A DNA stretch of 64,000 nucleotides from Kineosporia succinea (GTDB lineage: Bacteria; Actinomycetota; Actinomycetes; Actinomycetales; Kineosporiaceae). The notes below the pieces were generated by a model. That model ran no database searches. It was not told where the DNA came from and worked only from the letters and a program-made list of their open reading frames with translations. A program made the translations under genes and the position numbers. The stretch lies in NCBI RefSeq assembly GCF_030811555.1, contig NZ_JAUSQZ010000001.1:3779241-3843240 (forward strand), in the 5' to 3' direction. Below are positions 11,706 through 58,629 of the stretch, piece after piece (position 1 is the stretch's first letter; each line of letters starts with the position of its first letter).

Positions 11706-11716
11706 GTCTTCGTGTT

Positions 11717-11757: not shown

Positions 11758-11776
11758 CGTCCGGCGCGTCCGTTCC

Positions 11777-13651: not shown

Positions 13652-13671
13652 GCGGGACCCCCCAAGGGCAG

Positions 13672-13681
13672 TGTCCGGACA
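13672..13681. promoter_or_regulatory. TGTCCGGACA candidate operator at the BY-kinase start
   Basis: The fifth exact copy of the decamer lies 21 bases before the GTG of the Wzz/BY-kinase gene, and a partial second copy (TGTCCA) follows two bases on. The position is right for repression of that gene. Confidence 0.5.
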
Positions 13682-14092
13682 TCTGTCCAGGGCTGAAGGC
13701 CGGCGCTGAACGGCCTTCATGCTATCGACGCACAAAGGCGCTGACCGGCGTTGTGACAATCCGTTCGGGCCATGGCCGCATAGGTATTTCGGTCATCGGA
13801 ATACCCGGAGTATGGAATGCTGACCGCTTCCGGTCCGGTTCTGCCCGTGCAAGCGATGGCGGCGGAATTGTCTCGGAAAAGTGCGCATGGATATTGCCCT
13901 CGAATTGCACGCTGCAGTGCAAGTGTGCGGCGGGTGTGCGTGGAGGTGCGCATGGGCACTGCACTGCTGATGCACCACGAAACTCAACACGTCAGCTTGT
14001 GGAGAAAGCGGTGAATTCGTGCCTATGCTGACAATTGCTGCAAGCGCAGTAGGTGTCGGCGGACCATATTTGCGCGATTGACGGGGGTCATC
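13682..14092. other. Divergent promoter region between the BY-kinase and HTH-TPR genes
   Basis: About 410 bases, clearly less GC-rich than the flanks, with no convincing coding frame. It contains the inverted repeat TTGCAC-N6-GTGCAA (13905-13922) and several GTGCGCATG/GTGCA-type echoes up to 13975. This is a plausible control region for either gene. Confidence 0.4.
13905..13922. promoter_or_regulatory. Inverted repeat TTGCAC-N6-GTGCAA
   Basis: Six-base perfect arms around GCTGCA form an 18-bp operator-like element about 170 bases upstream of the HTH-TPR gene. The cognate regulator is unknown; autoregulation by the HTH-TPR protein is one possibility. Confidence 0.4.
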
Positions 14093-39943: not shown

Positions 39944-40983
39944 ACCCGGCCGAGACCAGTCCCGGGCTCGACCGTCCCGCACTGGATCCGGCAGAGATCA
40001 CCACCACGGTGAATGCTGCCTGCCGGATTCTGGGCCTCGACCCCCGCGACCACACCGTTCTCAAGTTCACCAACAACGCGGTGCTGCGCCTGCCCCGGGC
40101 CGGCGTGGTGATCCGGATCGCCGGGTCCGCGGCCGTGGGCGAGCGGGCCCGGCGGGTGGTGCACGTCGCCCGGCTGCTCGAGCGGCACGGGGTGCCCGCC
40201 GTGCGCCTGGCCCAGCCCGACGACCAGCCGATGATGGTCCGCGGGCACGAGGTCACGCTCTGGCACGACGTCCGCCCGGTGCGCGACGCCGAGCCCGCCG
40301 ACCTCGCGGTGCTGCTGAAGGCGGTGCACGCGGTGCCCCTCGCGACCCCGGCCGCCCCGGTGGTGCCGGCCCGTCGCGGTCGCAGCCGCCGGCGTCCCTC
40401 GGTGCCCGGGCAGAACACCGGGCCCATCCCGGTGCAGTCACCCTCGCCCGCGGCCTCCCTGGTGCGCTGGGAACCGGTCGCCGGGATCCGCCGGCGCATC
40501 GCCTCGGCCGGGCCGCTGGCCCTCGAAGACCTGGCCTTCCTGCAGGCCGAGACCGACGCGGTGGCCGAGCAGCTCGCGGCGCTCAAGGAGCTGGAGCCGC
40601 TGCTGCCGCCCGGCCTGATCCACGGCGACTCGTTCCTCGGCAACGTCATCGTGGGCGAGAACGGGCCGGTGCTGTGCGATTTCGACTCCACCTGCTGGGG
40701 GCCGCGCGAGTGGGACCTGACGCCGATCGCGGTCGGGGCCCTGCGCTTCGACTACGGCGGCGACCCGGCCTCCCGGTTCGTCCTCGCCTACGGGCACGAC
40801 GTGCAGAACTGGCCCGGGTTCCCGGTGCTGCGCCGGCTGCGTGAGCTGCAGCTGGTCACCAGCGTGCTGCCGGTGCTGGCGGCCAATCCGGGGTTGCGGC
40901 CGCAGTGGCGCTTCCGGGTCGACAGCCTCCGTCGAGGAGACGCGTCGGCGCGGTGGAGTACCTACGGTCAGGTCTCGGTCTGA
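39940..40983 (+). CDS. Aminoglycoside-phosphotransferase-fold kinase
   Basis: A 347-residue cytoplasmic small-molecule kinase. The catalytic loop HGDSFLGNVIV starts at His228 (Asp230, Asn235), and the Mg-binding DFDST lies at residues 247-251. The N-terminal lobe has FTNNAVLRLPRAGVVIRIA. A Pro/Arg-rich insertion lies at about 138-165. APH-fold enzymes phosphorylate antibiotics, choline or sugars; the substrate here is not predictable. It is translated from a GTG that overlaps the XRE-TPR stop by four bases, so it may be its output or modulator. Confidence 0.82.
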   Translation: MNPAETSPGLDRPALDPAEITTTVNAACRILGLDPRDHTVLKFTNNAVLRLPRAGVVIRIAGSAAVGERARRVVHVARLLERHGVPAVRLAQPDDQPMMVRGHEVTLWHDVRPVRDAEPADLAVLLKAVHAVPLATPAAPVVPARRGRSRRRPSVPGQNTGPIPVQSPSPAASLVRWEPVAGIRRRIASAGPLALEDLAFLQAETDAVAEQLAALKELEPLLPPGLIHGDSFLGNVIVGENGPVLCDFDSTCWGPREWDLTPIAVGALRFDYGGDPASRFVLAYGHDVQNWPGFPVLRRLRELQLVTSVLPVLAANPGLRPQWRFRVDSLRRGDASARWSTYGQVSV

Positions 40984-40994
40984 CTCGTTCCCGA

Positions 40995-41031
40995 CCGGGC
41001 GAGCCCACCCACGGGGGGTGGGTTCGCCCGG
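40995..41031 (+). terminator. Intrinsic terminator after APH-fold kinase
   Basis: A 15-bp stem with one G-T pair (CCGGGCGAGCCCACC with GGTGGGTTCGCCCGG) and a seven-base loop, followed by GTTTCACC, separates the kinase from the DUF4132-like gene. Confidence 0.8.
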
Positions 41032-41072
41032 GTTTCACCGGTCTGGCTCTCAAGATTGTCGGTGGGCGTTGG

Positions 41073-41078
41073 TAGCGT
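41073..41078 (+). promoter_or_regulatory. -10 element TAGCGT for the DUF4132-like gene
   Basis: TAGCGT followed by seven bases and the GTG start suggests a leaderless mRNA and the promoter of the whole five-gene locus. No ribosome site is present. Confidence 0.45.
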
Positions 41079-41085
41079 CCGCGAC

Positions 41086-41937
41086 GTGAGTTGGACGAAG
41101 ACCGCGAGTGGGCACGAAGTCGCTCTGGACGAGGGCGTTCTGCGGTGCCGCAACAGCTCGGGCCGCCTGCTGAAGAGCGTTCCCGCGTCACTGAAAGACG
41201 ACCCGGTGGTGGTGCAGCTGCGCCAGGTCGCCGAATGGCTCACCCGGCACGAGGCCAGTTGCCTCGCCCAGGTCGAGACCTGGATGGTCCGTTCGCTGCC
41301 GGTGCCGCTCGGCCTGCTCACCGAGGTCTGGCCCGACGAGTCCTGGCAGCGGGCCCTGCGCGACCTCGTGGTGCGGTCGTCGGCGGGCGGTGAGCTCGGC
41401 CTGCTGCGCGCGGTCGACGCCGAGAAGGGCATCGGGCTGGTCACTCTCGAGGGTGACACGGTGTTCGTGCCCGCCCCCGAGGTGGAGATCCCGCACCCGG
41501 TGCTGCTGGCCGACCTCGACGAGCTGCGCGAGTTCGTCACCGACCTGGGTGTCGAGCAGACCGTCTCGCAGCTGTTCCGCGAGATCACGCCGCGCCCGTC
41601 CGGCCTGCGCCCGCGTGACACCTCGCTGAGCGACTTCTCCGGCGGCGCGTTCGGCGAGCTGAGGTTCCTCACCGGCCGGGCCAACTCACTGGGATACGCG
41701 GTGCGCGGTGGCTACGCCTCGCTGCGCGTCTGGGAGGGCGGGCGCCCGCTCGACGCCCGTTACTGGCTCGGGTCCGACGCCCCCGAGGGCCCGGCCTGGA
41801 CCGGTGAGCTCGGCTGGGTCGACGAGGCGTCGCGCCCGGTCCCGCTCACCGAGGTCGGGCCGGTGGCCTGGTCCGAGGGCGCTCGCATGGCGGCCCGCAT
41901 CTTCGCGGGCCGCACCACCGAAGACGAGGCGGCATGA
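41086..41937 (+). CDS. DUF4132-like protein, first gene of the MoxR/VWA/SWIM locus
   Basis: A 283-residue soluble protein. The core EIPHPVLLADLDELREFVTDLGVEQTVSQLFREI and the end PVPLTEVGPVAWSEGARMAARIF resemble the C-terminal domain of DUF4132 (E. coli YehI), whose N-terminal parts are absent here. The resemblance is from memory and needs a profile search. It may contact the giant protein encoded next, with whose gene it overlaps by four bases (ATGA). The GTG start is favoured by a -10-like TAGCGT seven bases upstream and the lack of a ribosome site. Confidence 0.68.
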   Translation: MSWTKTASGHEVALDEGVLRCRNSSGRLLKSVPASLKDDPVVVQLRQVAEWLTRHEASCLAQVETWMVRSLPVPLGLLTEVWPDESWQRALRDLVVRSSAGGELGLLRAVDAEKGIGLVTLEGDTVFVPAPEVEIPHPVLLADLDELREFVTDLGVEQTVSQLFREITPRPSGLRPRDTSLSDFSGGAFGELRFLTGRANSLGYAVRGGYASLRVWEGGRPLDARYWLGSDAPEGPAWTGELGWVDEASRPVPLTEVGPVAWSEGARMAARIFAGRTTEDEAA

Positions 41938-44900
41938 GCAGGCAGACGCGGGAGAAGCTGATCGAAGCCGGCGCGGTGGTGGCCGGCCCGGCCCCGGAGT
42001 CGTCGCTCGACGGCACCGACACGATGACGGCCCGGGCCTACCGGCATCCGGCCCTGGGCGATCGGGCGGTGGTCCGGCTGGTGCCCGAGACCCTGGGCGG
42101 TGCCGAGGATCTCGCCGTCGAGTTCCTCGGGTTCGAGCCCGCCCGGCCCCCGGTCGCGGTCGGCACGGGCCGGCGTCAGGCCCTCGGCTTCCCGGCCTGG
42201 GCCCTGGTCAACGACCCGGCCAACGGTCACCACGCGCTGGCGCTGGTGAAAGACCTCGAGCGGCTGGCCCGGCAGGCCAAGGGCCGCCCGGGCGCCGCGA
42301 AAGACGGCTTCGACGAGCTGGCCGCCCGGCTCGGTGCCTCGGTGCCGCACTTCCTGCCCACGTTCTACGAGCAGGCCGGCCGCGCGTTCCTGGCGGTCGA
42401 CAACAAACAGAGCGCGGCCACGATGTTCGGCAAGGCCCGCGAGGCCGAGCGGGTGCACGCCCTGCCGATCGACGAGGCCCGGCAGCGCGACGTCTTCCTG
42501 GAGTTCGCGTTCAACGGCGCCCTGAGCGGCAAGTCACTCACCCAGTACGCGAAAGACCTGGCGCAGCGCACCGATCCGGTCGCCGCCTACGAGCTGTTCC
42601 GGCAGGTCTGCGCCGAGCGCGTCGCCGGTGGCCTGCCGCCCTACGCCGGCATGGCCGACGACCTGCGCCGCCTGGTCAAGGCGGCCGAGCTGGGGCAGGC
42701 CGCCGAGGAGGAGAAGGTCGTCCGCGAGCTGCTCGACTCACCCGCGCTGCCGCACGCCCCGCTGCCGTTCTGGAAGTCCTACGCCGCCGCGCTGCAGCGC
42801 CTGTCGGCGAAAGAGCCGGCGGTGCGCCGAAGTCTGCTCTCCCTCTTCCCCCAGGGCGACCAGACCGGCACCGAAGACTTCTGGTTCACCCTGCTGCACG
42901 ACACCGGTTCGCTGGCCGGGCTCACCGAGCTCGACGGGGTGCCCGAAGCGGCCCGGCCCGAAGACGGCTCGGCCGGCTGGCTCGCCCGGGCCGTGCTCTG
43001 GCGGGCCCGGGGCTGGCGCACCACCCGGCGCTCGCCGCGGCTGCTCTCCCTGGCCCAGGCGATGGTGCCCCGGCTGCAGGCCGAGAACGTGCCGTTGCGG
43101 CTGCTCGACAAGGGCGTCGACCTCGACCTGCTCGACCTGGTGCTCGCCCACGGCCTGCGCGTGCAGTTGCCCGAAGGGCGCCCGGTGGCCAAGTTCGGCC
43201 TCAAGCGCTGGCGCGAAGACCAGTCACCGGGTCGTCGTGACCTGGTGAGCCTGGCGGCAACCGACTGGGCGCGGGAGCCGATGCGGCTGGGCATCGACGA
43301 GGCCATGCGCGACCGCTACGGGTTCCGGCCCGATGCGGCGGGCCGCAAACCGCTCGACGACCTGCGTCCGTTCTACGAGACCCGGGGCCCCCGCGAGGCT
43401 CTCGGCGACTGGCTCGACGAGACGGCCACGGCCGTGACCGGTGGGGCGCTGCCGGCGCTGACCGACACGCTCGACCGGCTGCGGCTGGTGGCCCACGGCG
43501 AGGTGCTCGGGGTGCGGCCCGACGCGTATCCCCGGCTGAGCGGCGCCGACGTCGCCGGGGCACTGGCCCGCACGCTGCGGATCGGGCTGTTCGACGAGTT
43601 CGGCTGGCCCGCGCTCGAAGAGGCGGTGGCCGAGTTCCCGGTGCCCAAGCCACATCCCAACGGCTACACCGAAGAGCCGTTCACCGTCGCCGACTCCTGG
43701 CCCGCGCTCGTGCTCCACAACAAGCTCATGGCCGTGGTGGTGGGCCCACGGGAGATCCTGCTGCGTCACACGTTCCGTATCCCGAAAGACGTGCCGAGCT
43801 ACTACTCGCGCTCGGTGGTCTTCGTCGACGGGCGGCTGCTGGTGCTGTGGGACAGCGAGAGCGGGGTGCACGGCTACTGGGACGACCGGGCCGACGAGGT
43901 CTTCCGGGTCGCCGGGGCGATGCCGCAGCACCACTTCAGCCGCTTCGGCACGTCCGCGCCGCTGCCCGGTGGCGGGCGCACCTTCGGCGGGCGCCCGCTG
44001 CTGCCCGGCGACCGCACCGTGGGCAAGGCCCACGCCGTGGTGAGCGACGGCTCGGGCTGGTGGCGTCTCGACGGGGAGATGGTCAACGGCCGGGGCTGGC
44101 GCGAGTTCGACCCGGCCACCGGCGATCCGGGGCGGCTCTCACGTCCGGCGTTCTTCGAGGCCGGGCTGGAGGCCGACGGGTCGGTGCCGGCCGACGACTG
44201 GTGTGCCCTGGCCCCGGTGCCGCCCGGGTTGGAGGGCACGCCGTTCGGCACGGCCGGCGGGCTGCTGGGCTGGCGCTCGGTGCGGTCGGCCGACGGGTCG
44301 GGCGAAGCGGTCTCGGTCACCGGTGACGTGGCCCGGCTCAGGCCGGAGCTGATGAAGTCGTCCGGAATCCACTGGCAGCCCGGGGTCGTCGGCCCGATCC
44401 GGATGCCCGGCGGGGGTCCTGCGGTGGCGTTGCTGATCGCGGGCCGGGGCACGTCCGTCACGTTCTCCGACGGCGAGGTGGGCGGTAGCGACGTGCACAC
44501 CGGCCGGTCGTGCGACTACGCCAAGGGCACGCCACTCGTGCCGCCGGTGGTCTACTGGCACGCGCTGCGGGCGCGTGACGAGCAGGGGTCGGCGGCGCTG
44601 CGGGGCATCACCCGTGAGCAGGCCGCCGCGCTGGTCGAGGCCGCCCGGCGGGGCCGGGCCGAGAAGGCGGTGCGGCAGGTGCTGCCGCAGATCACCCACG
44701 AGAAGCTGGTTCTCGGGGTGGCGGGCGTGCTGGAGGTCGCGGTCGCGCAGGCGGAACGGGTGCGGTCGCTGCCCGAGCCGGTGAGCACGCGGCCGGTCGA
44801 GATCGTCAACACACCGGAGGCCGAGGAGCTTCCGGAGGCGGAGCCTCCCGCGGGGGCAGGTGTCGCGGTGCCGGCCACGGCCTCCGACCAGGATCTGGGC

Positions 44901-46967
44901 CGCGCGGTGGCCGGGCTCACCGAGAGGGCCACCTACTACGGCCACTACTCGGGAAGCCGCAGCAGTTACGAGACGCTGCCCAACCTGCGCGGGGTCGTCG
45001 CGGTGCTGACCGGCAACCCGCCGAAGAAGGGGCTGCTGTCCAAACTCGGCCTGGGCGCGAAGAAGCCGTCGTCGGCCGACGTGCCCACCACGTCCGTCGA
45101 CTGGTCCACCCCGGTGACCGGGGGGCTGGGCGCCCTGGCCCTGCGCGCGTCCCTGGCGACCACCCCGCCCGAAGTCCGGTCGGCCCTGATGGTGCTGCTG
45201 GCCGAGGTGGCCCGGCACCCGGTGCTGATCCCGGCGGCCGGGCACTGGCGCCGACTCAAGCTGGTCTCCGTGAAATCGTCCACGCCCCAGGCGATCCGCG
45301 ACCAGGAGGTCGAGCACGGCACGATGCTGCCCACCCGGGGTGGTCAGGCTTTCGCCTTCTTCTGGGACACCGAGTACCACGACGGTTCCTACCGGGGTGT
45401 GCTCACGGCCCTCGAACACGTCACCGAACCCGGTGATTTCGGCCCGGTTGACGGCTACCGCATCTCCCTCGAACGGGAGGGTGGCAGCTGGGGCAGCCCG
45501 GAGGCGATCCTCGCGCTGCTCGACCTGCTGGCGCAGCACGGGCCGGCGTCGTGGCGGCCGGAGGCGGTCGACGAGCTGGTGAACCGCACCGGCCTGACCC
45601 GCGCCGAGGCGGCGCTGTTGCTGGCCGGTCTGCTGCAGATCGACTCGTACGAGAACAACTTCCTGCCCAAGGAGGTCCGCGAGCTGCTCGGCCTGAAGGT
45701 GGCCGAGGCCAAGACGGCTCGAGACGCTCTGGTCGGGCGGCTCGACGTCGGGGCCCGGCTGCGGTTGCTGTCCGCGGCCATGCCCGACGAGCCCGCCGAC
45801 CTCTGGGAGAAGGGGCCCGATGTCGAGCGTCTGGCCCGGGAGTGGGTGGCACTGTTCGGGCGCCGGGTGCCGGTGGCCGACGAGCTGGTCGCCGCGTTCG
45901 CCGCCTCCCGCAAGGGCGCGTACACCGGGGCGCAGGACGCGGCAGCCGTGCTGCAGGCGATGGCCGCACCCGCCGCGACCGGATGGCTGAACGTCGACCT
46001 GACAGCGCGTTTCGAAGACAAGCGGCTCACCTACGACGGCGATTCCGGATTCTTGCCGAGGCACCTGTCCGACACCGTGATCGGGTTGCTGTGGCTGGCC
46101 TACCACCTGCCCCTGCACGATCCGCTCCGGCGCACGCTGCCCGAGGTTTACGACGCCCTGCGCCAACGGCTCGCCCACCCCGGTCTGCTGATGCTCTTCC
46201 GGCAGGCCGAGGGGCGCACGCTCGACGGATTGCGGCAGGTCTACGGTCTGCCGCCCGCGCCGGAGGGGCCGAACGCCCCCGAGGAGCTGCTGGACCTGGG
46301 GGGTGCGGGGTATCTGGTCAGCCGCCCCTGGAGGTCCGAGCTGTACGTGCGGCCGGCCGCTCTCGACGGGGCCGGGCAACCGCTGCTGGCCCTGGGCGAG
46401 GCCGTGCCCGACCAGTGGAGCTACCCGTTGCTCGTCGCCCGCGGTGAGGCGCTGGCGCGGCTGGTGGCCGAGCTGCGGGCGCCGGAGGTGACCGAGGGGT
46501 GGCTGCAGGATCCGGCGGTGAGTGTGCCCGATCTGGTCGAGCGGGTGAGCGCCCGCACCGGGCTCGACGCCGCGGCGGCCCGCTACTACCTGCAGTTGCT
46601 GGCGTTGCCCGATCCGACCGACAAGAACGTGCGGCTCTGGAACGGCTGGACGCCCCGTCGGCTCAAGGCCGCCACGTCCGCCCTGACCGAGGCCGGGCTG
46701 GTGGTCGAGGGCAGGCGGGCGCGGGCCGGGCGGTCGGTGTTTCTGCCGTCGGCCTGGCTCAACGTGAAGGCGCCGGGGCTGCCGTTGGAGGCGTGGAAGG
46801 TGCCGTTGCTCGGGCTGTCACCGGGTGGGGCGTCGCCGCTCGACCTGGCGGTGCCGGTGACGTCGGTGCGGGAGCTCTTCCGGCTGGCCTGGGAGCGGGT
46901 CGAGGGTGACGACGGGCCGCGCCTGGAGGCCCTGCGCACCGGACGCGCGGCGGGGCGGGCGCGATGA
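41934..46967 (+). CDS. Giant 1677-residue protein of unknown function in MoxR/VWA/SWIM locus
   Basis: A very long, mostly helical and soluble protein without signal peptide or membrane helix. The N-terminal third (about 1-330) contains the runs HPALGDRAVVRLVPETLGG, LVNDPANGHHALALVKDLERLAR and QAGRAFLAVDNKQSAATMFGKAREAERVHAL. A beta-rich middle (about 590-850) includes IPKDVPSYYSRSVVFVDGRLLVLWDS. A segment near 1000 has GHYSGSRSSYETLPNLRGVVAVLTG. I recall conserved streptomycete homologues of similar length with no assigned function. No catalytic motif stands out. It may be a scaffold or client-binding protein for the MoxR ATPase; this is inference from gene order. It is coupled to the upstream gene and followed after 46 bases by the ATPase gene. 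Confidence 0.82.
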   Translation: MSRQTREKLIEAGAVVAGPAPESSLDGTDTMTARAYRHPALGDRAVVRLVPETLGGAEDLAVEFLGFEPARPPVAVGTGRRQALGFPAWALVNDPANGHHALALVKDLERLARQAKGRPGAAKDGFDELAARLGASVPHFLPTFYEQAGRAFLAVDNKQSAATMFGKAREAERVHALPIDEARQRDVFLEFAFNGALSGKSLTQYAKDLAQRTDPVAAYELFRQVCAERVAGGLPPYAGMADDLRRLVKAAELGQAAEEEKVVRELLDSPALPHAPLPFWKSYAAALQRLSAKEPAVRRSLLSLFPQGDQTGTEDFWFTLLHDTGSLAGLTELDGVPEAARPEDGSAGWLARAVLWRARGWRTTRRSPRLLSLAQAMVPRLQAENVPLRLLDKGVDLDLLDLVLAHGLRVQLPEGRPVAKFGLKRWREDQSPGRRDLVSLAATDWAREPMRLGIDEAMRDRYGFRPDAAGRKPLDDLRPFYETRGPREALGDWLDETATAVTGGALPALTDTLDRLRLVAHGEVLGVRPDAYPRLSGADVAGALARTLRIGLFDEFGWPALEEAVAEFPVPKPHPNGYTEEPFTVADSWPALVLHNKLMAVVVGPREILLRHTFRIPKDVPSYYSRSVVFVDGRLLVLWDSESGVHGYWDDRADEVFRVAGAMPQHHFSRFGTSAPLPGGGRTFGGRPLLPGDRTVGKAHAVVSDGSGWWRLDGEMVNGRGWREFDPATGDPGRLSRPAFFEAGLEADGSVPADDWCALAPVPPGLEGTPFGTAGGLLGWRSVRSADGSGEAVSVTGDVARLRPELMKSSGIHWQPGVVGPIRMPGGGPAVALLIAGRGTSVTFSDGEVGGSDVHTGRSCDYAKGTPLVPPVVYWHALRARDEQGSAALRGITREQAAALVEAARRGRAEKAVRQVLPQITHEKLVLGVAGVLEVAVAQAERVRSLPEPVSTRPVEIVNTPEAEELPEAEPPAGAGVAVPATASDQDLGRAVAGLTERATYYGHYSGSRSSYETLPNLRGVVAVLTGNPPKKGLLSKLGLGAKKPSSADVPTTSVDWSTPVTGGLGALALRASLATTPPEVRSALMVLLAEVARHPVLIPAAGHWRRLKLVSVKSSTPQAIRDQEVEHGTMLPTRGGQAFAFFWDTEYHDGSYRGVLTALEHVTEPGDFGPVDGYRISLEREGGSWGSPEAILALLDLLAQHGPASWRPEAVDELVNRTGLTRAEAALLLAGLLQIDSYENNFLPKEVRELLGLKVAEAKTARDALVGRLDVGARLRLLSAAMPDEPADLWEKGPDVERLAREWVALFGRRVPVADELVAAFAASRKGAYTGAQDAAAVLQAMAAPAATGWLNVDLTARFEDKRLTYDGDSGFLPRHLSDTVIGLLWLAYHLPLHDPLRRTLPEVYDALRQRLAHPGLLMLFRQAEGRTLDGLRQVYGLPPAPEGPNAPEELLDLGGAGYLVSRPWRSELYVRPAALDGAGQPLLALGEAVPDQWSYPLLVARGEALARLVAELRAPEVTEGWLQDPAVSVPDLVERVSARTGLDAAAARYYLQLLALPDPTDKNVRLWNGWTPRRLKAATSALTEAGLVVEGRRARAGRSVFLPSAWLNVKAPGLPLEAWKVPLLGLSPGGASPLDLAVPVTSVRELFRLAWERVEGDDGPRLEALRTGRAAGRAR

Positions 46968-47013
46968 GGGCCGTGGGGTCGGGGAGACTGACGAGCGTGA
47001 CGGGAGCAGGACA

Positions 47014-48324
47014 GTGAGCGCGACGGTGACGCCGGGCGGTTCGGGGCCCTCCTCGGGTTCGGGGGCCGCCGGGCCGGGCAGCTCTGGGCCGGGCAACTCG
47101 GGGCCGGGCAACTCGGGGCCGGGCAACTCGGGGCCGGGCAGCTCGGGGCCGGGCAGCTCGGGGCCGGACGGATCGGCACCGGCCCCGGGCTCTCGGCAGG
47201 TCGACCCGCCGGAAGATCGCTACGCCGCCGAGCTGGAGTTCCTCGCCGCCTTCGACGACGGCGCCCGCCCACCCGGCTGGCATCTGACACCGCGGGCGGT
47301 GGTGACGTTCGTGGTCGGTAGTGAGCGGCCGCTGTCGCTGCCCGCCGGCCGTGAGCGCGAGGGCGTGCCGCGGCGGATGACGATCTCGGAGAAGTTCGTC
47401 GGTGAGCGGGCCCTGGTCGAACGGTGCGTGGTCACCCTGGCCGGTGAGCGCGGGCTGCTGCTGGTCGGTGAGCCCGGAACCGCCAAATCGATGCTGTCGG
47501 AGCTGCTCTCGGCCGCCGTGTGCGGCACGAGCGGCCTGGTCGTGCAGGGCACGGCCGGCACCACCGAAGACCAGCTCCGCTACGGCTGGAACTACGCGGC
47601 GCTGCTGGCACAGGGGCCGAGCCGGTCCGCGCTGGTGCCCTCGCCGGTGATGACCGCCATGTCGGCGGGGGCCGTGGCCCGGGTCGAAGAGGTCACGCGC
47701 TGCCTGCCCGAGGTACAGGACTCGCTGGTCAGCATCCTGTCCGACCGTCGCATCGCGGTGCCCGAGCTCCCGGGCGCCGACTCGGCCGTGCACGCCGCGC
47801 CGGGCTTCTGCCTGATCGCGACGGCGAACCTGCGTGACCGCGGGGTCTCGGAGATGTCGGCCGCGCTGAAGCGGCGGTTCAACTTCGAGCAGGTGCACCC
47901 GATCGCCGACATCGAGCTGGAGACCGCCCTGGTGCGGCGGCAGGCCACGGCCGTGCTCGAGCGGGTGCAGGCACCCTTCGCGGTCGACGACTCGGTGCTC
48001 GAGGTACTGGTCACGGCCTTCCGCGACCTGCGCAACGGCAGCACCGTCGAGGGCTGGGAGGTGGAGCGCCCGTCCACGGTGATGAGCACGGCCGAGGCGG
48101 TCTCGGTGGCGGCGGCGCTGGGGCTGGCCTCGGCGTACTTCCCGACCGGGCGGGACCCGCTGTCGCTGCTGCCCGGGCATCTGCTCGGCGTGGTGCGCAA
48201 AGACGACCCGGCCGACGCCGCGCGGCTGCTGGGCTACTGGGACGGCGCGGTGCGCCGCCGGGCCGAGCGCGGTGGCCGCCTCTGGCGTCAGGTGTGGGAA
48301 CTGCGCGACCGGCTCGAGACGTGA
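47014..48324 (+). CDS. MoxR-family AAA+ ATPase, YehL type
   Basis: A 436-residue ATPase. Residues 20-55 are repeats of GPGNS/GPGSS. The AAA+ core has Walker A GEPGTAKS (152-159), Walker B-like ARVEEVTR with Glu225/Glu226, and the motif FCLIATANLRDRGVSEMSAALKRRFNFEQ. The last is distinctive for the YehL subfamily of MoxR proteins. MoxR ATPases act as chaperones that remodel targets together with a VWA-domain partner, encoded next. GTG start with GGGAGCAGG upstream. The locus layout matches E. coli yehL with yehP and yehQ homologues. Confidence 0.9.
   Translation: MSATVTPGGSGPSSGSGAAGPGSSGPGNSGPGNSGPGNSGPGSSGPGSSGPDGSAPAPGSRQVDPPEDRYAAELEFLAAFDDGARPPGWHLTPRAVVTFVVGSERPLSLPAGREREGVPRRMTISEKFVGERALVERCVVTLAGERGLLLVGEPGTAKSMLSELLSAAVCGTSGLVVQGTAGTTEDQLRYGWNYAALLAQGPSRSALVPSPVMTAMSAGAVARVEEVTRCLPEVQDSLVSILSDRRIAVPELPGADSAVHAAPGFCLIATANLRDRGVSEMSAALKRRFNFEQVHPIADIELETALVRRQATAVLERVQAPFAVDDSVLEVLVTAFRDLRNGSTVEGWEVERPSTVMSTAEAVSVAAALGLASAYFPTGRDPLSLLPGHLLGVVRKDDPADAARLLGYWDGAVRRRAERGGRLWRQVWELRDRLET
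47071..47175. repeat. Seven 15-bp tandem repeats inside the MoxR gene
   Basis: The unit GGGCCGGGCAACTCG (or GGGCCGGGCAGCTCG) is repeated in frame, encoding GPGNS/GPGSS pentapeptides. The first and last units are slightly degenerate. Copy number may vary between strains. Confidence 0.95.
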
Positions 48325-48331
48325 CCTCCTG

Positions 48332-51300
48332 ATGGCGGCCCGGAAGAAGCTGCCCGACCCGCAGGCCGCGGTCGGCGAAATGGTGGCGGCACAGCCGTAT
48401 CTCATCGGGGTGCGGCACCATTCGCCGGCGCTGTCCGCGGTGATCCCGGCGCTGCTCGACGAACTGCGGCCGCAGTCGGTGCTGATCGAGATGCCACCCC
48501 AGTTCGAACGATGGACGACGTGGCTGGGGCACCCGGACACGATGGCCCCGGTCGCGCTGGCCGGGTCGGGAGAACCGCTGCCGTTCTACCCGTTCGCCGA
48601 TTTCTCGCCCGAGCTGGTGGCGATCCGGTGGGCGGTGGCGCGCGGGGTGCCGGTGGTGGCGTGCGACCTGCCGCTGGGTGACGAGGGCTGGGGCGGGCGT
48701 AGCCGGGCGAAGGGGCGCGGCAAGAAGAGCGCGGTGCACGAGGCGCCGTCCGGTGACCACTCGGAAACCGGCTCCGGGGCGCGAGAGCCGTTCGCCCAGG
48801 CCCTGCGTCGTTCCCAGACCGGCCGCGACGGCGACGACCTGTGGGACCGCGTCGTCGAGGCCCCGGCCCCCGGCGCCACGCCCGAGCAGGTTCGCCGCGC
48901 GGCCCTGGCCGTCGGCTGGGCCCTGCGCGCCGACGAGGCGGTCGACGGTCGTGTGGCCTCCGTCGACCTGCGGCGCGAGGCCCAGATGCGGGCCGTCGTC
49001 GCCGACCACCGGCGGCGGCACCCCGATCACCGCGTCGCCCTCCTGGTCGGGGCCTTTCACGCCCCCGCCCTCGTGAGCGCCGAGAACGTCGACCCGGCCA
49101 GCCAGACCGCCGAACTCGAGGCCCCGCGTCCGGTCGCCGAGGTGACCACGAGCCTGATCCCGTACGCAGACCCGTTGCTGGACAGTCGTTCCGGCTACCC
49201 CGCGGGCATCCGCGACCCCCGCTGGCAGGCCGAGACGGTGAGGGCGGGCGGAGATCCGGCGAAGGTGTCCGCGGCGGCGTCACGGGTGGCCGTGGAGGTC
49301 TGCGCCCAGATCCGCGAGGGCGGGCACCCGGCCGGGCCCGGGGAGGCCCGCGAGGTGGTGCGCCTGACCGAGGACCTGGCCCGGCTGCGCGGGCTCCCGG
49401 CGCCCGGGCGCAGCGAGATCGTCGAGGCGCTGAGCACGGTCCTGACCCAGGGCGAGACGCTGGGGCGCGGCCGGGTGGTGGCCCGGGCGATGGAGCGGGT
49501 GCTGGTCGGTGAGCGGCGCGGTCGCCTGGCCCCGGGCACTCCGCGGTCCGGGCTGGGGCCTTCGCTCGAGGCCCTGCTGAAAGAACTGAAGCTCCCGAAT
49601 CCCGAGGCACCGCAACGGAAAGAGCTCCGGCTCGACCCGTTGCGCAGCCCGCTCGACCGGCGCCGCGAGATCACCCTGCAGCGCACCCAGGCCTGCGGCA
49701 TCTACTTCGCGCTGCCCGGCGAGGTGCAGGGCGTGGGGGCGGCGGCCGCCCTCACCACGCTGTGGCTCGCCGAGTGGACGCCGTCCACGGCCGCGCTCAC
49801 CGAGATCGCCGGTCTGCTGGGCGTGACGCTCGAGCAGGCGTCCGACGGCACCCTGCGCCGGCAGCGGGAGCGCGAACGCGCCGAGGGCGGCAGCACGGCG
49901 TCCCAGGTGCTCGAGGGGCTGCTGTCCGCGGCCGAGTGCGGCCTGCCCGGGCTGACCGCCGAGCGTCTCGACGACACGGTGCGGGTGCTGCCCGCCACCG
50001 CCACGCTGCCCGAGCTGCTGATCGGCCTCGACCTGCTGAGCCGCCTCGAGCAGGACACCGTGCCCGGCCTGGTGGGCCATCCGCTGCCCGATCTCGGCCT
50101 GGTGATCGACGAGGTGCACTCGGCCGCGATCCGGCAGGTCGACGGGCTGGCCGGTTCCACCGACCCGGCCGACGCCCGCGCGCTGCTGGCCCTGGTGGTG
50201 CGGCACGACCGGCTCGGCACCGGCCTGCGGCTCGACGCCGCGCTGAAACGCCTGACGCACGAGGGCAGTCCGCTGATGCGGGGCGCCGGGGCGGCGGTGC
50301 GGGTGCTGCTCGGGCTCGACGACGCCGCCGACCTCGGCGACCGGGCCGCGGCCTGGCTCGACCTGGACGCGCCGCTCGAGCTCACGGCCCGGCTCTCCGG
50401 TCTGCTGATCGTGGCCGGTCCGCTGCTGGAGGCCGGGGGTGATGTGCTCGACCCGCTGCTGGCCCGGCTCGAGGTGATGCCCGATGACCTGTTCCTGCGC
50501 CGGCTGCCCGCCGTGCGGGGAGGTTTCGACGTGCTCACCCCGGCCGCGCGGGCCCGTCTGCTGGCGGCGGTGGAGTCCCGGCTCGACGACCGGCTCGACC
50601 TGGTCATGACCACCGATCCGGTGCTGCTCGGGCGCTGGGCGCAGGCCGACGCGCACGCCCTCGAGGCGCTGCGCGAACGCGGTCTGGCCTCGGCGGTGGC
50701 GCTCGCCCCGGCCGACCGCTGGCGTCTCGTGCTCGGGCAGAAGGGTGAGTTGCGGGGCCAGGCGAAGCGTTACGGTCAGGCGCTCGACGAGCTCTACGGG
50801 CAGGGCCGGGGCGAGGGGGCAGGCAGCGACTTGCAGGGCAGTGGTGCCGGTGACGGCCCGGGGTACCCGGGCGTGCGTGAGTGGTCCGAAGACCTCACCC
50901 AGCTCTTCGGCGCCACCGTTCGCGAGGAGGTGCTGGCCGCGGCGGCCGCCGGTGGGCGTGTCGACGCCGCCCTCGCGATCGACCCGGCGTCCGCGCGTCC
51001 GTCGGTGGAACTGCTCACCAGTGTGCTGTCGCTGGCGGGCGCGCTGCCCGAGCGCACGGTGGCGCGGTTGCGCCCGCTGGTGGCCAAGGTGGTCTCCGAT
51101 CTGACGCAAGAACTCTCGCGCACGCTGACCCCCGCGCTCACCGGCCTGACCTCGTCCCGCCCGACGCGCCGGGCGGGCGGCCCGATCGACCTGCACCGCA
51201 CCATCCGGGCCAACCTCAAGACCGCCCGCTACCGCCCCGACGGCACCGCCACCGTCATCCCCGAGCACCCCGTGTTCAAGACCCGCAGCAAACGCACCAC

Positions 51301-51796
51301 CGACTGGCGCATCATCCTGCTGGTCGACGTGTCCGGGTCGATGGAGGCGTCCACGGTCTGGTCGGCCATCACCGCGGCCGTGCTCTCCGGCGTGCCCGCG
51401 CTGACCACCCATCTGCTCGCCTTCTCCACCGAGGTCATCGATTTCACCGGCGTGGTCAGCGATCCGCTGTCGCTGCTGCTGGAGGTCTCGGTCGGTGGGG
51501 GCACCTCGATCGCGACCGGTCTGGCCGCGGCCCGCGAGCTGGTCACCGTGCCGAGCCGCACGATGGTCGTGGTGGTGAGCGACTTCGAGGAGGGCGGTTC
51601 GATCGGCCCGCTGCTGGCTCAGGTGCGCATGCTGGTGGACGCGGGGGTGCGCGTTCTCGGGTGCGCGGGTCTCGACGAGTCCGGCGCCGCGCGCTACAGC
51701 GTGTCCGTGGCGGGGCAGCTGGTCGGCGCCGGGATGCCGGTCGCCGCGCTGAGTCCGCTGGAGCTGGCGCGCTGGGTGGGGGAGCAGGTGCGATGA
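48332..51796 (+). CDS. DUF5682-VWA fusion protein
   Basis: A 1154-residue soluble protein. The N-terminal DUF5682-like part starts IGVRHHSPALSAV, with VLIEMPPQFE (Glu53). It later has SLRREAQMRAVVADHRRRHPDHRVALLVGAFHAPALV. These recall the GxxH, ExP, RE..M, GA.H pattern of TIKI/TraB/EreA-like metal enzymes; that comparison is inference. A long helical middle follows. The C-terminal VWA domain has the MIDAS motif DVSGSME (Asp999, Ser1001, Ser1003), the Thr in GGTSIATGL and the Asp in VVSDFEEGG. In related loci these are often two genes. The VWA domain is the expected partner of the MoxR ATPase. It overlaps the SWIM gene by four bases; the upstream gap is seven bases with no clear ribosome site. 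Confidence 0.85.
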   Translation: MAARKKLPDPQAAVGEMVAAQPYLIGVRHHSPALSAVIPALLDELRPQSVLIEMPPQFERWTTWLGHPDTMAPVALAGSGEPLPFYPFADFSPELVAIRWAVARGVPVVACDLPLGDEGWGGRSRAKGRGKKSAVHEAPSGDHSETGSGAREPFAQALRRSQTGRDGDDLWDRVVEAPAPGATPEQVRRAALAVGWALRADEAVDGRVASVDLRREAQMRAVVADHRRRHPDHRVALLVGAFHAPALVSAENVDPASQTAELEAPRPVAEVTTSLIPYADPLLDSRSGYPAGIRDPRWQAETVRAGGDPAKVSAAASRVAVEVCAQIREGGHPAGPGEAREVVRLTEDLARLRGLPAPGRSEIVEALSTVLTQGETLGRGRVVARAMERVLVGERRGRLAPGTPRSGLGPSLEALLKELKLPNPEAPQRKELRLDPLRSPLDRRREITLQRTQACGIYFALPGEVQGVGAAAALTTLWLAEWTPSTAALTEIAGLLGVTLEQASDGTLRRQRERERAEGGSTASQVLEGLLSAAECGLPGLTAERLDDTVRVLPATATLPELLIGLDLLSRLEQDTVPGLVGHPLPDLGLVIDEVHSAAIRQVDGLAGSTDPADARALLALVVRHDRLGTGLRLDAALKRLTHEGSPLMRGAGAAVRVLLGLDDAADLGDRAAAWLDLDAPLELTARLSGLLIVAGPLLEAGGDVLDPLLARLEVMPDDLFLRRLPAVRGGFDVLTPAARARLLAAVESRLDDRLDLVMTTDPVLLGRWAQADAHALEALRERGLASAVALAPADRWRLVLGQKGELRGQAKRYGQALDELYGQGRGEGAGSDLQGSGAGDGPGYPGVREWSEDLTQLFGATVREEVLAAAAAGGRVDAALAIDPASARPSVELLTSVLSLAGALPERTVARLRPLVAKVVSDLTQELSRTLTPALTGLTSSRPTRRAGGPIDLHRTIRANLKTARYRPDGTATVIPEHPVFKTRSKRTTDWRIILLVDVSGSMEASTVWSAITAAVLSGVPALTTHLLAFSTEVIDFTGVVSDPLSLLLEVSVGGGTSIATGLAAARELVTVPSRTMVVVVSDFEEGGSIGPLLAQVRMLVDAGVRVLGCAGLDESGAARYSVSVAGQLVGAGMPVAALSPLELARWVGEQVR

Positions 51797-53586
51797 GTCT
51801 TCCTCCGGCTGATCCCCGGCTGGTCGCCGAGACGATCGCGGCGTTGCCCGCGCGGCTCCAGAAGCGGCTCGACGCGGCGGTTTCCGGTGCCGCAGACTGG
51901 ACGTTCACCGACGGCACGGTGGTCATCGGCGCCGCCCGGGTGACGTTGCGGCCCGACGCCGGTGTGCTGCTCCAGGCTGAGAACGTGCTCTGCGACTGCC
52001 TTCTCGCACCGGCCTGTCTGCATCGCGCCGCGGTTCTCAGTGTCGCGCCGGTTGCCGAGGGGCCGATGGCGGACGCGCCGGTCACCGAACCGGAGGATCT
52101 CCCGGAGGAGTCCGGGTCACCTGAGGTGACCCGCACGGGGTCCGCAGAGCCGACACCCCCCGAAGGCGAGACGGAGGCGGCGGGTGCCGCCGCGTCCACC
52201 GTCGAAAGCACGGCCGAGACCTGGAAACCCGCTGAACGCGCGGCTGCCCGGATGATCTGGAACGCCGTGGGCCAGCTGCTCGAAGCCGGCCTGGCGGGTG
52301 CGGGCGCGGCCTTGCAGGGGCAGCTGCTGGCGGGCGTGCACCAGGCCCGGTTGCGTGCACTGCACCGGCTCGCGGCCGCGACCACCCGGGTGGTGACCGC
52401 CGTGCGCGCGGCGCGAGGTGACGACGTCTCGTTCTCGCTGCCGGCGCTGGTGTCCGACGTGCTGGAGGTGCTGTCGGTGGCGCACGCGATCGTCAGCGGC
52501 ACGGGCGATCCGGCGCGCTGGAGGGGCACGGCGCGCACGGTCTACAGCGACGTCGGCGGGCTACGGCTGGCGGGGCTCTGTCTGGAACCGGTGATCAGTG
52601 CGGCGGGTTACGCCGGGGTGGTGGTCTGGCTGACCGACGCCGAGGGGCGGTTGTGGTCGGTGTCGGATGTCAAACCCGGTGGTCCGGAACGGGTTCCGTC
52701 GTCGGCGGGAGGGCCGGTGGCGGTCGGGGAGACCGGTCTGTCGCATCGTGACCTGGCCCGGGCGGGCATGATCATGTCGGCGGCCACGGCCAATCCGGAG
52801 GGGCGACTGGGCGCGGGTAAGGGGGTGCAGGCGGTGCGTGCCGCCGGTGTGGGGTGGACGGAACCGCAGCTCCTGAGCCGCTTCGGCCCGCTCGGCAGGC
52901 CTCAGCGCGATGTGGTGGGGCGCCACCCGAAACTGCTGACGCTCACCGTGTGCGGGGCCGAACGCGACGCGGTGCTGGCCGTCGACGACGAGGGGGAGGG
53001 CGTGAGACTGGTGGTGCCGCCGGGCGACCATCGGCAGATTCATCGCGACAACCTGCGTCTGCTGGCTGAGAAACCCGGGCTGCGGGTGCTGGCGATCGCC
53101 CGTCCGCTGCCCGACGAGAACGGGGCCGCGCGTTTCCTGGGGGTGCCGGGCACGCTCGAGCTGCTCGCGATCGGTGGTGGTGACCTGCGCCTTCCCGCGG
53201 CGATGGGCGGGCACGCCGATCTCGGGTTCGACCGGCTGTCGGTGCGTTTCCTGCGTCCGTCCGGGCCGCCGCCACCCTTCCCGCCGGCCGGTGATGTGAT
53301 CGATCCGCTCCTGGCCTACCGGCGGCGGCTGGAACGGGTGGTCTCGGGCGGCCGGCGCACGCTGTCGGTGCCGGGGGTGCCCCAGGAGGTCCGTACCGAG
53401 GCGGCCGCGCTGCGCCGTGACCAGCTGGGCACCGCGGCGGTGCTGCTGGAGCGGCTGCTCGACGCCGCCCAGCCGGCCGGGCGGGACGTGTTCGGCCGGC
53501 TCACCGGCGACGGCGGGGGCGATCTGGCCCGGGCCTGGCTGTCGGCGGGCACCTATCAGCGAGAGCTGCTCACGGCACCGGTCTGA
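51793..53586 (+). CDS. SWIM zinc-finger protein
   Basis: A 597-residue soluble protein. The SWIM zinc motif CxCx5CxH reads CDCLLAPACLH with Cys67, Cys69, Cys75 and His77, after the DWTFTDGTVVIGAARVTL strand pattern that usually precedes it. The rest has acidic linker sequence (about 95-150), helices, and a C-terminal strand-rich region (GAERDAVLAVDDEGEGVRLVVPPGDHRQIHRDNLRLL). SWIM fingers bind DNA or protein; in the yehQ-type position the target is unknown. It is the last gene of the locus, started by ATGA overlap. Confidence 0.87.
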   Translation: MSLPPADPRLVAETIAALPARLQKRLDAAVSGAADWTFTDGTVVIGAARVTLRPDAGVLLQAENVLCDCLLAPACLHRAAVLSVAPVAEGPMADAPVTEPEDLPEESGSPEVTRTGSAEPTPPEGETEAAGAAASTVESTAETWKPAERAAARMIWNAVGQLLEAGLAGAGAALQGQLLAGVHQARLRALHRLAAATTRVVTAVRAARGDDVSFSLPALVSDVLEVLSVAHAIVSGTGDPARWRGTARTVYSDVGGLRLAGLCLEPVISAAGYAGVVVWLTDAEGRLWSVSDVKPGGPERVPSSAGGPVAVGETGLSHRDLARAGMIMSAATANPEGRLGAGKGVQAVRAAGVGWTEPQLLSRFGPLGRPQRDVVGRHPKLLTLTVCGAERDAVLAVDDEGEGVRLVVPPGDHRQIHRDNLRLLAEKPGLRVLAIARPLPDENGAARFLGVPGTLELLAIGGGDLRLPAAMGGHADLGFDRLSVRFLRPSGPPPPFPPAGDVIDPLLAYRRRLERVVSGGRRTLSVPGVPQEVRTEAAALRRDQLGTAAVLLERLLDAAQPAGRDVFGRLTGDGGGDLARAWLSAGTYQRELLTAPV

Positions 53587-53688
53587 ATACTGACCGCCCG
53601 TGAAAGGTGTGGCCTGTGCGGGTGATGGGTCGGTGAACCGGCGAGATCCGGCGCTGATGGCCGGTGTTGCCCCTAGACTGCGGGCATC

Positions 53689-54186
53689 GTGACCGAGCTG
53701 AGCAGCGACCTGGCGGAGGAACCCGCGCCGGAGGAGATCTCCGAGGAGCCGGAAACCGGTCTGCTGTCGCGCTGGTCGTTGCAGACCCCGGGTATCGACA
53801 TCTTCTGGCCGATCCTCGCGGTCGTGCTCACGACGGTCGTGATCGTGGTGGCCTCGGTCGCCCACTCGTCGATGGCCGCGGTGGGGGTGGGTGACCCGCG
53901 CACCGACTGGGCCGCCTCGCCCAGCCCGGCGATGGACGCGCCGTTCGTGGTGGTGCAGGTGTCCAGCCGCCCGACCCAGGCGCAGGCCCAGGCCGAGGCA
54001 CAGAAACTGATCATGGCGAAGTTCAACGCCGGGGTGCTGCGGTCGGACTTCTACGAGCCGATGAACAAGGGCTGGTACGTGGTGTTCGTCGGCCCGTTCG
54101 AGAACAGCACCGCCGGCAAGGCCCAGGCCGAGGCCGTCACCCGGCAGATCGAGGGCTCACTCGTGCGCACCCTGCGGCGGCGCTGA
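53689..54186 (+). CDS. SPOR-domain membrane protein
   Basis: A 165-residue single-pass protein. The N-terminus is acidic, then a membrane helix at about residues 42-60 (FWPILAVVLTTVVIVVASV). The C-terminal region PFVVVQVSSRPTQAQAQAEAQKLIMAKFNAGVLRSDFYEPMNKGWYVVFVGPFENSTAGKAQAEAV has the SPOR pattern that binds denuded septal peptidoglycan. It may work in cell division or envelope remodelling. The GTG start follows TAGACT by nine bases, with no ribosome site. It overlaps the convergent TetR gene by 30 bases. Confidence 0.82.
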   Translation: MTELSSDLAEEPAPEEISEEPETGLLSRWSLQTPGIDIFWPILAVVLTTVVIVVASVAHSSMAAVGVGDPRTDWAASPSPAMDAPFVVVQVSSRPTQAQAQAEAQKLIMAKFNAGVLRSDFYEPMNKGWYVVFVGPFENSTAGKAQAEAVTRQIEGSLVRTLRRR

Positions 54187-57078: not shown

Positions 57079-57477
57079 TGGCGATGTGGCGGCGAATGCT
57101 GCGGCAACCACGTCGTTGATGCATTCTCGCTCCGGCTGGCCGCTGCCGCTGCCGCTCACATGGGGTGGGGAATACGGTCGCCAAAACTTCCGGACGATCG
57201 ACAAGGTTCAGGTCCACTTTCCTTATGTGACGACCGGGCAAATCAGAAACAAAACCCCCTGCCCTCCCGGCCCGGTCGGTGAACAGGCGTGCCCCGTACC
57301 GGGCTTCGACTCAGCGGCGGGCGTTGAGCCAGCGGTGATTCGGGCCCCGGGTCGCGGAAGAGACGCGCGCCGGGGACCGGCCTCCCATCAGGCCCGGAAC
57401 GTAACGGCCGGTTGAGGCGTCTGGAACGTGTGCGCCCGTCAAAAGGCGGCAAGCGGCACGGGTGGGAGGATCACGGC

Positions 57478-58629
57478 ATGGCACCCGCACCCCGGGACTG
57501 GTTCAGCAAACAGTTCGGCGAGACCTTCGACGACAAGGCCCGCGAGATCGGCCGGTTCAACCTGGCCATCTTCGGCAAGACCGGCGTGGGCAAGAGCACG
57601 CTGGTCAACGCCATCTTCGGCGAGGACGTGGCGGAGACGGGCATCGGTCAGCCGGTGACCCAGGGCAGTCATCTCTACCTGCATGCCGACGGGCACTTCG
57701 GCGTGCTCGACACCCGCGGCCTGGAGATCGGCACCGACGACGCCACGATCCTCGACGAGCTCGAGACCTACATCAAGGACATGCGTCGTCAGCCGCAGGC
57801 CGACCAGGTGCACGTGGCCTGGTACTGCGTGCGGGCCGGCGACCGGCGCTTCGAGGACACCGAGGAGGCCTTCATCCGCGGCCTCGACCGGCTCGGGCTT
57901 CCGGTGCTCATCGTGCTCACCCAGGTGCCGATGCGCGACGGGGAGTACCACCCCGACGCGATCGCCCTGCGTGACGCCATCGCCGAGCGCGACCTGCCGG
58001 TGAACGGGCAGATCTTCCTCACCAACGCCAAGGCCGACGACTTCGCCGGGCTCGAGGCGCACGGCCTTCAGGAGCTTCTGGATGCCACGTTTCTCGTCGC
58101 CCCGGCGGGAGTACAGGAAGCGCTCGTGGCTGCGCAGAAGATCGACCTGAGCCGCAAGCGCGCCTCGGCCGAGAAGGCCATCCGGGCCGCGGTCGGTGCG
58201 GCCGCGGCGGCCGGGGCCACGCCAATCCCGTTCTCCGACGCGGCGGTGCTCGTGCCGATCCAGCTGACGATGATGGCGACGATCTCGCACATCTACGACG
58301 TCGGCGTCGACCGTTCCACCGCGGGGGCCCTGGCCGCCACGGCGGCGGCCACCGCAGGCGGGCGCTCGCTGGTGACGGGCCTGATCAAGACCGTTCCGGG
58401 AGCGGGCACGCTGATCGGCGGCGGCATCGCGGCGGCCGTGGCCTCGGCCGTCACCTGGGCCGTCGGCCAGGCCTGGACCACCGTCTGCTCGCGCCTGTCG
58501 CAGGGCAAGCTGCAGGGAGTCTCGGGCGCGCTCGACAGCGACGCGATCCGCGAGCTCTTCCTCGACGAGTTCCGCGGCAACATGCGCAAGAAGCTGCCGG
58601 GCGGCTTCAAGTCCGTCGACCGCAAGTAG
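57478..58629 (+). CDS. Dynamin/Era-like GTPase with DUF697 domain
   Basis: A 383-residue P-loop GTPase. The G1 motif FGKTGVGKST covers residues 32-41, and G3 is DTRGLE at 78-83. The G4 segment LTQVPMRD is unusual, lacking NKxD. The C-terminal half (about 215-330) is Ala-rich and hydrophobic, with IPFSDAAVLVPIQLTMMATISHIYDVG and VPGAGTLIGGGIAAAVASAVTWAVG, matching DUF697, which is often membrane-associated. Proteins with this pair occur widely and are thought to act in stress or envelope processes; the role is not established. ATG with GGGAGGA eight bases upstream. It ends in a strong hairpin. Confidence 0.85.
   Translation: MAPAPRDWFSKQFGETFDDKAREIGRFNLAIFGKTGVGKSTLVNAIFGEDVAETGIGQPVTQGSHLYLHADGHFGVLDTRGLEIGTDDATILDELETYIKDMRRQPQADQVHVAWYCVRAGDRRFEDTEEAFIRGLDRLGLPVLIVLTQVPMRDGEYHPDAIALRDAIAERDLPVNGQIFLTNAKADDFAGLEAHGLQELLDATFLVAPAGVQEALVAAQKIDLSRKRASAEKAIRAAVGAAAAAGATPIPFSDAAVLVPIQLTMMATISHIYDVGVDRSTAGALAATAAATAGGRSLVTGLIKTVPGAGTLIGGGIAAAVASAVTWAVGQAWTTVCSRLSQGKLQGVSGALDSDAIRELFLDEFRGNMRKKLPGGFKSVDRK

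Follow-up and report, generated by a model that had tools for sequence, protein, structure and literature searches.

Five plus-strand genes fill positions 41086-53586 of the Kineosporia succinea window (the whole stretch of DNA that was analysed, 64,000 nucleotides), as judged from the open reading frames (ORFs) and their translations. The five genes and the promoter site directly in front of them are treated here as one system, whose largest member, the product of gene 2, is referred to as the giant protein. Its parts lie as follows.

41056..41078, plus strand: RecA-NDp/PafBC-type site TTGTCGGTG-GGCGTTGG-TAGCGT (spacer N8), an exact consensus match that ends 7 nucleotides before the GTG of gene 1
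41086..41937, plus strand: gene 1, a 283-amino-acid DUF4132 protein with a GTG start (Pfam PF13569, 88.8 bits, cut-off 27)
41934..46967, plus strand: gene 2, the 1677-amino-acid giant protein, with no Pfam, NCBIfam or PADLOC family above cut-off
42228..43628, plus strand: predicted TPR-like helical solenoid, giant residues ~99-565
43683..44498, plus strand: predicted strand-rich region read as a beta-propeller, giant residues ~584-855
46518..46910, plus strand: predicted winged-helix-like C-terminal region, giant residues ~1529-1659, a weak match
47014..48324, start codon uncertain, plus strand: gene 3, a YehL-type MoxR AAA+ ATPase (Pfam AAA_5, 124.5 bits, cut-off 22)
48332..51796, plus strand: gene 4, a DUF5682-VWA fusion of 1154 residues, with both Pfam domains on a single chain
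48443..51028, plus strand: DUF5682 part of gene 4 (Pfam DUF5682, 594.9 bits, cut-off 26)
51116..51778, plus strand: CoxE-type VWA domain of gene 4, MIDAS intact (Pfam VWA_CoxE, 199.2 bits, cut-off 26.4)
51793..53586, plus strand: gene 5, a 597-amino-acid protein with a SWIM-like CxCx5CxH motif close to the N-terminus

The first-pass annotation of this DNA had described five adjacent plus-strand genes, three of whose four joins were four-base overlaps or a seven-base gap. All of the ORFs exist as placed, and the joins are as described: genes 1 and 2, and likewise genes 4 and 5, share a 4-base ATGA overlap, a 7-base gap separates genes 3 and 4, and 46 bases lie between genes 2 and 3 if gene 3 starts at 47014. 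Profile searches with each protein, proposed at that stage, supplied family names for genes 1, 3 and 4, since the Pfam scores for DUF4132, MoxR and the DUF5682-VWA fusion are above their cut-offs, and no family above cut-off for the giant protein. The SWIM name given to gene 5 held only in part: the CxCx5CxH motif is there, but the Pfam SWIM score of 11.2 bits is under the cut-off of 19.6. No sigma-70-like promoters and no terminators were found across 40900-53800.

The five genes keep together across a wide set of relatives. Counts of giant loci, here and below, refer to the best 80 of 455 confirmed relatives, obtained by scanning genome_contigs with an alignment of the giant. All five genes were present in the same order and on the same strand in 63 of the 80 loci, another 15 were cut by contig ends, and two were real exceptions: L117 of Actinokineospora globicatena (9050-14776) stops after genes 1 and 2, with none of genes 3-5 downstream, and L131 has no gene 1. 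The prospect of scattered homologues had been raised at the outset, and the neighbourhood comparison gave this conserved order instead. A start codon at the 4-base-overlap position was seen in 73 of 78 measured joins between genes 1 and 2, 53 of 75 between genes 2 and 3, and 56 of 65 between genes 4 and 5. Across 246 actinobacterial genomes, the giant was found in 7, DUF5682 in 19 and DUF4132 in 13 (12 above cut-off), and in all seven giant-bearing genomes, that of the window included, a DUF4132 gene and a fused DUF5682-VWA gene adjoin the giant. Among relatives with a name, those nearest to the giant are from Kineosporia, at 64% and 68% in the best-matching segment. A FastTree tree of 60 giants (each sequence less than 80% identical to those kept earlier, midpoint root, no support values shown) mostly tracks the lineages; Nonomuraea groups with two Streptomyces, so that one or more transfers are likely. 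No neighbour with a fixed place beside the unit was found among the 14 clusters of flanking ORFs that span the most genera. By these comparisons the five genes are one co-inherited unit, and we infer that they are co-transcribed.

The site at 41056-41078 is the sole exact match in the window, on either strand, to the RecA-NDp consensus tTGTCRgtg-8 nt-TannnT, which comes from LexA/RecA-independent damage genes (PMC5656591) and is reported as the motif used by PafBC (PMC6789036, PMC8223512). Because the site ends 7 nucleotides before gene 1, the transcript may be leaderless, in agreement with the putative leaderless promoter of the first-pass annotation. When the region upstream of gene 1 was scanned in 78 relatives, the best site had no mismatch in 36, one in 18, two in 14, three in 7, four in 2 and five in 1. 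This count leaves out L129 and L131, where gene 1 was not found, and one row, L126 (counted at three mismatches), is to be dropped, leaving 77 of 78, because its gene is cut by a contig end and its upstream slice is therefore wrong. Two mismatches or fewer were seen in 68 of the 78 relatives versus 3 of 780 dinucleotide shuffles, of which none was exact, one had one mismatch and two had two. As a cruder control, random pieces of 290 bases were drawn from the same loci, so that some may include the site itself; of these 1560 pieces, 0.77% had an exact match. Over the 80 giant loci, gene 1 is preceded by an exact site 36 times, and one further exact site lies elsewhere in 1,796,788 bases, both strands counted. 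Actinobacterial SOS boxes were also tried as the control element of the giant operons and were rejected; they occurred at one mismatch or fewer in 4 of 78 rows, one being the mis-sliced L126. As a sequence, the RecA-NDp site before gene 1 is conserved across genera, and the operon would thus appear to be regulated by DNA damage.

The same motif marks other genes in the genome of the window, where 15 exact RecA-NDp sites were found versus 1 for a reversed control pattern. An NCBIfam scan of 10 ORFs for the 14 other sites (the longest ORF starting within 260 nucleotides; L176, L178, L179 and L182 were not scanned) identified endonuclease III (Nth), SbcD, RadA and LigA above the NCBIfam cut-offs, together with a ClgR-like regulator and a histidine-kinase-like protein, both under cut-off, and four ORFs without a match. 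A Pup ligase gene lies at 5177201 of this genome, and some 4 kb beyond it, on that strand too, are two neighbouring WYL-domain genes, out of 7 WYL matches in total. In mycobacteria, pafB and pafC are reported to adjoin pafA (PMC5656591), and the adjacent WYL pair are, by position and domain, our PafBC candidates.

The motif is found as well before relatives of the unit that have no giant. At one mismatch or fewer it was present in 13 of 24 such loci (23 actinobacterial, one from Methylobacterium), and of the 21 sites, 17 immediately precede a system gene, 3 precede a small ORF, seemingly the first of the operon, and 1 lies elsewhere. All seven loci of the actinobacterial family f6 have an exact site 7 nucleotides before the SWIM gene, with a second site (one mismatch, other strand) before the MoxR gene. 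At L060, an actinobacterial locus resembling that of E. coli, yehI is preceded by an exact site, and exact sites were seen in two of six DUF4132 loci without other system genes (L167-L172). A site with one mismatch occurs at L056, where DUF4132 and giant sequences are fused.

Damage control of the same gene family has been described in other phyla. In Deinococcus radiodurans, the DdrO targets listed from chromatin immunoprecipitation sequencing (ChIP-seq) and RNA-seq include DR2173 (WGR) as well as a putative operon, DRA0165-DRA0166 (DUF4132), and tagged DRA0166 and DR2173 increase with mitomycin C in an irrE-dependent manner, as reported in PMC8533742. In Deinococcus taeanensis, an RDRM-like site ends about 20 nucleotides before the first gene of a SWIM-DUF5691-MoxR-DUF5682-VWA operon and is the sole one in 19 kb. 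This site has one mismatch to TTATG-N7-CATAA, which we take to be the pattern, and, counted by hand on the minus strand, differs from the published consensus at 2 of 15 positions. For E. coli, we take molR to be the yehF-yehH stretch. molR is reported to be among the LexA-regulated genes of E. coli (PMC11039860, PMC4576408). In M. smegmatis, MSMEG_5511, a VWA protein not identified as a member of the family and at most a lead, is reported to fall 1.6-fold when pafBC is deleted (PMC5656591). In all, the gene family is touched by three separate damage regulators, if not in every lineage.

The yeh genes of E. coli had been put forward as the closest known layout, and the comparison upheld this. 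The order in E. coli K-12 is yehF (WGR), the pseudogene yehH, yehI (DUF4132), yehK, yehL, yehM (DUF5682), yehP (VWA) and yehQ (SWIM), so that at both loci homologous MoxR, DUF5682, VWA and DUF4132 modules share a strand and have a similar order. The identity of gene 3 to YehL is 46.8% (E 9e-82), while gene 4 matches YehM at 26% (E 4e-16) and YehP at 35% (E 8e-41), and gene 1 aligns over nearly its full length with positions 938-1205, the last quarter, of a YehI-like alignment (hhalign probability 98.1%). Gene 5 is colinear with YehQ at a non-significant hhalign probability of 2.6%, and is perhaps YehQ-like. There are clear differences from the E. coli genes: DUF5682 and VWA are fused in gene 4; only the C-terminal YehI module is present, rather than a full-length YehI-type protein of ~1200 amino acids; a 1677-amino-acid protein without detectable YehI similarity has been added; and gene 5 has no significant similarity to YehQ. 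A further related arrangement is the SWIM-(DUF5691)-MoxR-DUF5682-VWA operon of a Deinococcus taeanensis plasmid and several actinobacteria, whose MoxR, DUF5682 and VWA proteins are homologous to those of the unit, but which has neither giant nor DUF4132 gene and keeps DUF5682 and VWA separate. DUF5691 is part of the Deinococcus operon and was not picked up with the Deinococcus query in the actinobacterial SWIM-MoxR-DUF5682-VWA loci.

The sequence motifs expected of these families are well kept. In the MoxR relatives GEPGTAKS and R.EE.TR were present in 75 of 75 and ATANxRDxG in 74 of 75, and by identity, motifs and its neighbourhood with DUF5682, CoxE-type VWA and DUF4132, gene 3 belongs to the YehL subfamily of MoxR AAA+ ATPases. 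Seven MoxR subfamilies, YehL among them, have been named, and their in vivo roles are called unclear (PMC3893208). Near the N-terminus of the window's MoxR protein there is a GPG(N/S)S-type repeat tract (47071-47170), missing from six aligned giant-locus relatives, which is probably a flexible linker. The VWA MIDAS motif DxSGSM was kept in 65 of 74 chains, all nine misses being chains cut by contig ends, and the gene 5 motif CxCxnCxH in 65 of 65. The RHHxP motif of DUF5682 was found in 73 of 74 giant loci, and R28, H29, H30, P32, E53, E94, D112, R215, E216, G240 and H243 are invariant in all 29 aligned sequences. These represent Actinomycetota, Deinococcota and the alpha-, beta- and gammaproteobacteria and do not include 5 of the 33 loci, each of the divergent type, that the search missed. 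We take this layout of invariant residues to resemble that of the Tiki superfamily (TraB, ChaN, EreA). Pfam matches were weak, with ChaN in 3 of 29 (best E 0.015) and TraB in 1 of 29 (E 0.016) among similarly weak others, hhalign against E. coli YbaP and one other TraB protein was not significant, a PDB profile search gave no sensible match, and TraB relatives on plasmids gave no match. DUF5682 as a proven Tiki hydrolase was accordingly set aside, and the likeness is left as a motif resemblance. DUF5682 is not mentioned in the literature searched, outside which lie subscription papers and preprints.

Modelling of the giant protein suggests a TPR-like solenoid followed by a beta-propeller and a winged-helix-like end, an architecture that fits the scaffold or client-binding role proposed for it in the first-pass annotation. 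Neither half has a solved relative by sequence at E up to 1, and Foldseek at E <=0.001 gave no PDB match for either half and no BFVD match for the N-terminal half. The possibility that the giant is a fused or extended YehI was rejected, as hhalign gave a probability of less than 1% for both halves against an eight-sequence YehI-like alignment. In another genome, the 1422-amino-acid protein of L056 fuses a DUF4132 part to both ends of the giant and skips its middle, and because of this fusion we suggest that the products of genes 1 and 2 are able to function as a single chain. Beside it, an ORF on the minus strand (L056 838-3609) has Macro and ADP-ribosyltransferase domains, with an exact RecA-NDp site at 3332 near its 5' end, and ADP-ribosylation may, to go by this site, be part of the same damage response.

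We suggest, with a probability of roughly 0.55, that the five gene products make up a single AAA+ machine, of the YehL-type MoxR class and inducible by DNA damage, which remodels or clears protein complexes on damaged DNA. A role in the damaged-DNA response is suggested because the promoter matches a DNA-damage alarm. Genotoxic stress would cause PafBC to turn the operon on, and MoxR, by analogy with known MoxR proteins, would assemble into a hexameric ring. The MIDAS VWA domain would hold a client while the MoxR ring pulls, as has been proposed for MoxR-vWA pairs (PMC7159879). The giant, together with the DUF4132 and SWIM-like proteins, would recognise and hold that client, which at best guess is a protein complex on damaged DNA. 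The DUF5682 arm could act on the client by hydrolysis, given an invariant His/Glu/Asp set that resembles those of Tiki-superfamily hydrolases, and the machine as a whole would use ATP to remodel such complexes or clear them away. Through the conserved damage promoter, and through damage control of DUF4132 and WGR relatives in two other phyla, an unexplained gene set becomes a testable hypothesis; if it is true, the bacterial DNA-damage response gains an ATP-driven remodelling machine. No treatment of the unit as one machine was found in the accessible parts of the open literature on combinations of DUF4132, YehL/MoxR, yeh/molR and PafBC. More tentatively, and as speculation beyond the window, YehL-type MoxR/VWA/DUF5682/DUF4132 systems might be a cross-phylum damage machine placed independently under PafBC in actinomycetes, DdrO in Deinococcus and LexA in E. 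coli. In it the MoxR ring would drive a Tiki-like hydrolase against protein complexes on damaged DNA, and the five-gene unit would be an elaborate form that has its own solenoid-propeller-winged-helix receptor.

Several observations weigh against a damage machine. The site is absent from L073, the closest giant locus outside Kineosporia (5 mismatches), and the best upstream match at L084 and L098 has 4 mismatches. The motif is missing from 11 of the 24 loci without a giant, although in one of these, L068, the first gene is cut off, and from the solitary DUF4132 loci L169-L172, one of which is in the genome of the window. In E. coli, the LexA-like site just before yehF differs at 7 of 20 positions from what we take to be the consensus, none lies before yehI or yehL, and a slightly better one (6 mismatches) lies inside yehM, so that the E. 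coli sequence evidence is, by itself, weak. No LexA-type site was found beside the operon in the Agrobacterium, Sinorhizobium, Methylobacterium and Iodobacter loci (three alpha- and one betaproteobacterial). The Tiki-like assignment of DUF5682 and the winged-helix match of the giant C-terminal region are both weak, PafBC binding to the site is a prediction, and the client, the catalysis and the DNA contact are likewise inferred.

The first-pass annotation had pointed to MoxR/vWA ternary systems, proposed as conflict or chaperone systems, and it could be argued that the five genes form an anti-phage or suicide system of this kind that DNA damage, e.g., from phage attack on the chromosome, incidentally sets off. 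We consider this unlikely, even if the likeness is real: the described systems (VMAP, iSTAND, FtsH and beta-propeller types; Kaur et al. 2020, PMC7159879) have a MoxR-vWA pair and a GXXXTAKS P-loop, which gene 3 carries as GEPGTAKS, they are reported to be enriched in multicellular bacteria, and the propeller type is reported to have a third component with TPR and propeller. MoxR relatives were found on 40 plasmid records, and L192, the one examined, has a five-gene unit of the same layout. The named giant-bearing taxa are mostly actinomycetes that we take to be filamentous. However, the VWA match ends at residue 1149 of the 1154 of gene 4, leaving no C-terminal propeller, bpMoxR (PF20030) reaches 22.3 bits on the unit under a cut-off of 27, and the PADLOC match on the unit is REase_II alone, at E 0.047. 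No effector domain was found in Pfam, no variable domain was seen in the unit, and phage records amount to a single unannotated one. The giant tree mostly tracks lineages, no neighbour recurs among the 14 flanking-ORF clusters examined, and DUF5682, DUF4132, SWIM and YehL do not occur in the main text of PMC7159879. Therefore, while the observation of one unit closest to yeh stands, a place among the published ternary conflict systems is not borne out, and the damage promoter, a connection absent from the first-pass annotation, points to genotoxic stress rather than conflict as such.

The VWA_CoxE domain, at 199 bits, invites comparison with maturation chaperones for metal or cofactor enzymes such as CoxD-CoxE, NorQ-NorD and magnesium chelatase, and the DUF4132 and molR names hint at molybdate. 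The unit shares with RavA-ViaA and CoxD-CoxE a MoxR ATPase plus a MIDAS VWA partner and differs from them in having no adjoining client enzyme seen and in its extra DUF5682, DUF4132, SWIM-like and giant parts. MoxR proteins are indeed thought to mature specific complexes (PMC3893208) and MolR has been linked to molybdate (PMC8533742), but moeA and moeB are reported as unchanged in the latter, Deinococcus, study, no client enzyme recurs beside the unit among the same 14 clusters, and the promoter is of the DNA-damage-gene type; we give this explanation little credence. It also seems quite improbable that the motif is a conserved generic promoter unrelated to damage and that the unit has another stress or developmental role. 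The motif does include an ordinary -10 element and is missing from some subtypes and lineages, yet a generic promoter would sit poorly with a tally of 36 exact sites before gene 1 and a single one in the rest of the 1.8 Mb, with own-genome sites before nth, sbcD, radA and ligA, and with independent published damage regulation in two other phyla.

Downstream of the five-gene unit, the window encodes a SPOR-domain protein (53689-54186) and a GTPase with DUF697 (57412-58629), with no tie to the unit seen. The same genome holds two further relatives. One (L057, 3062000-3081000) is a second, divergent MoxR-VWA-DUF5682-like operon with a RecA-NDp site at one mismatch, whose front ORFs we could not name, two of them having no Pfam match. 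The other, at about 5.4 Mb (L171, 6749-10498), is a 1249-amino-acid YehI-like DUF4132 ORF without other system genes and without the motif. In other genomes, divergent VWA-MoxR operons, the first with two front ORFs that lack a Pfam match, were found at L065, L202 and L203, and these have exact RecA-NDp sites.

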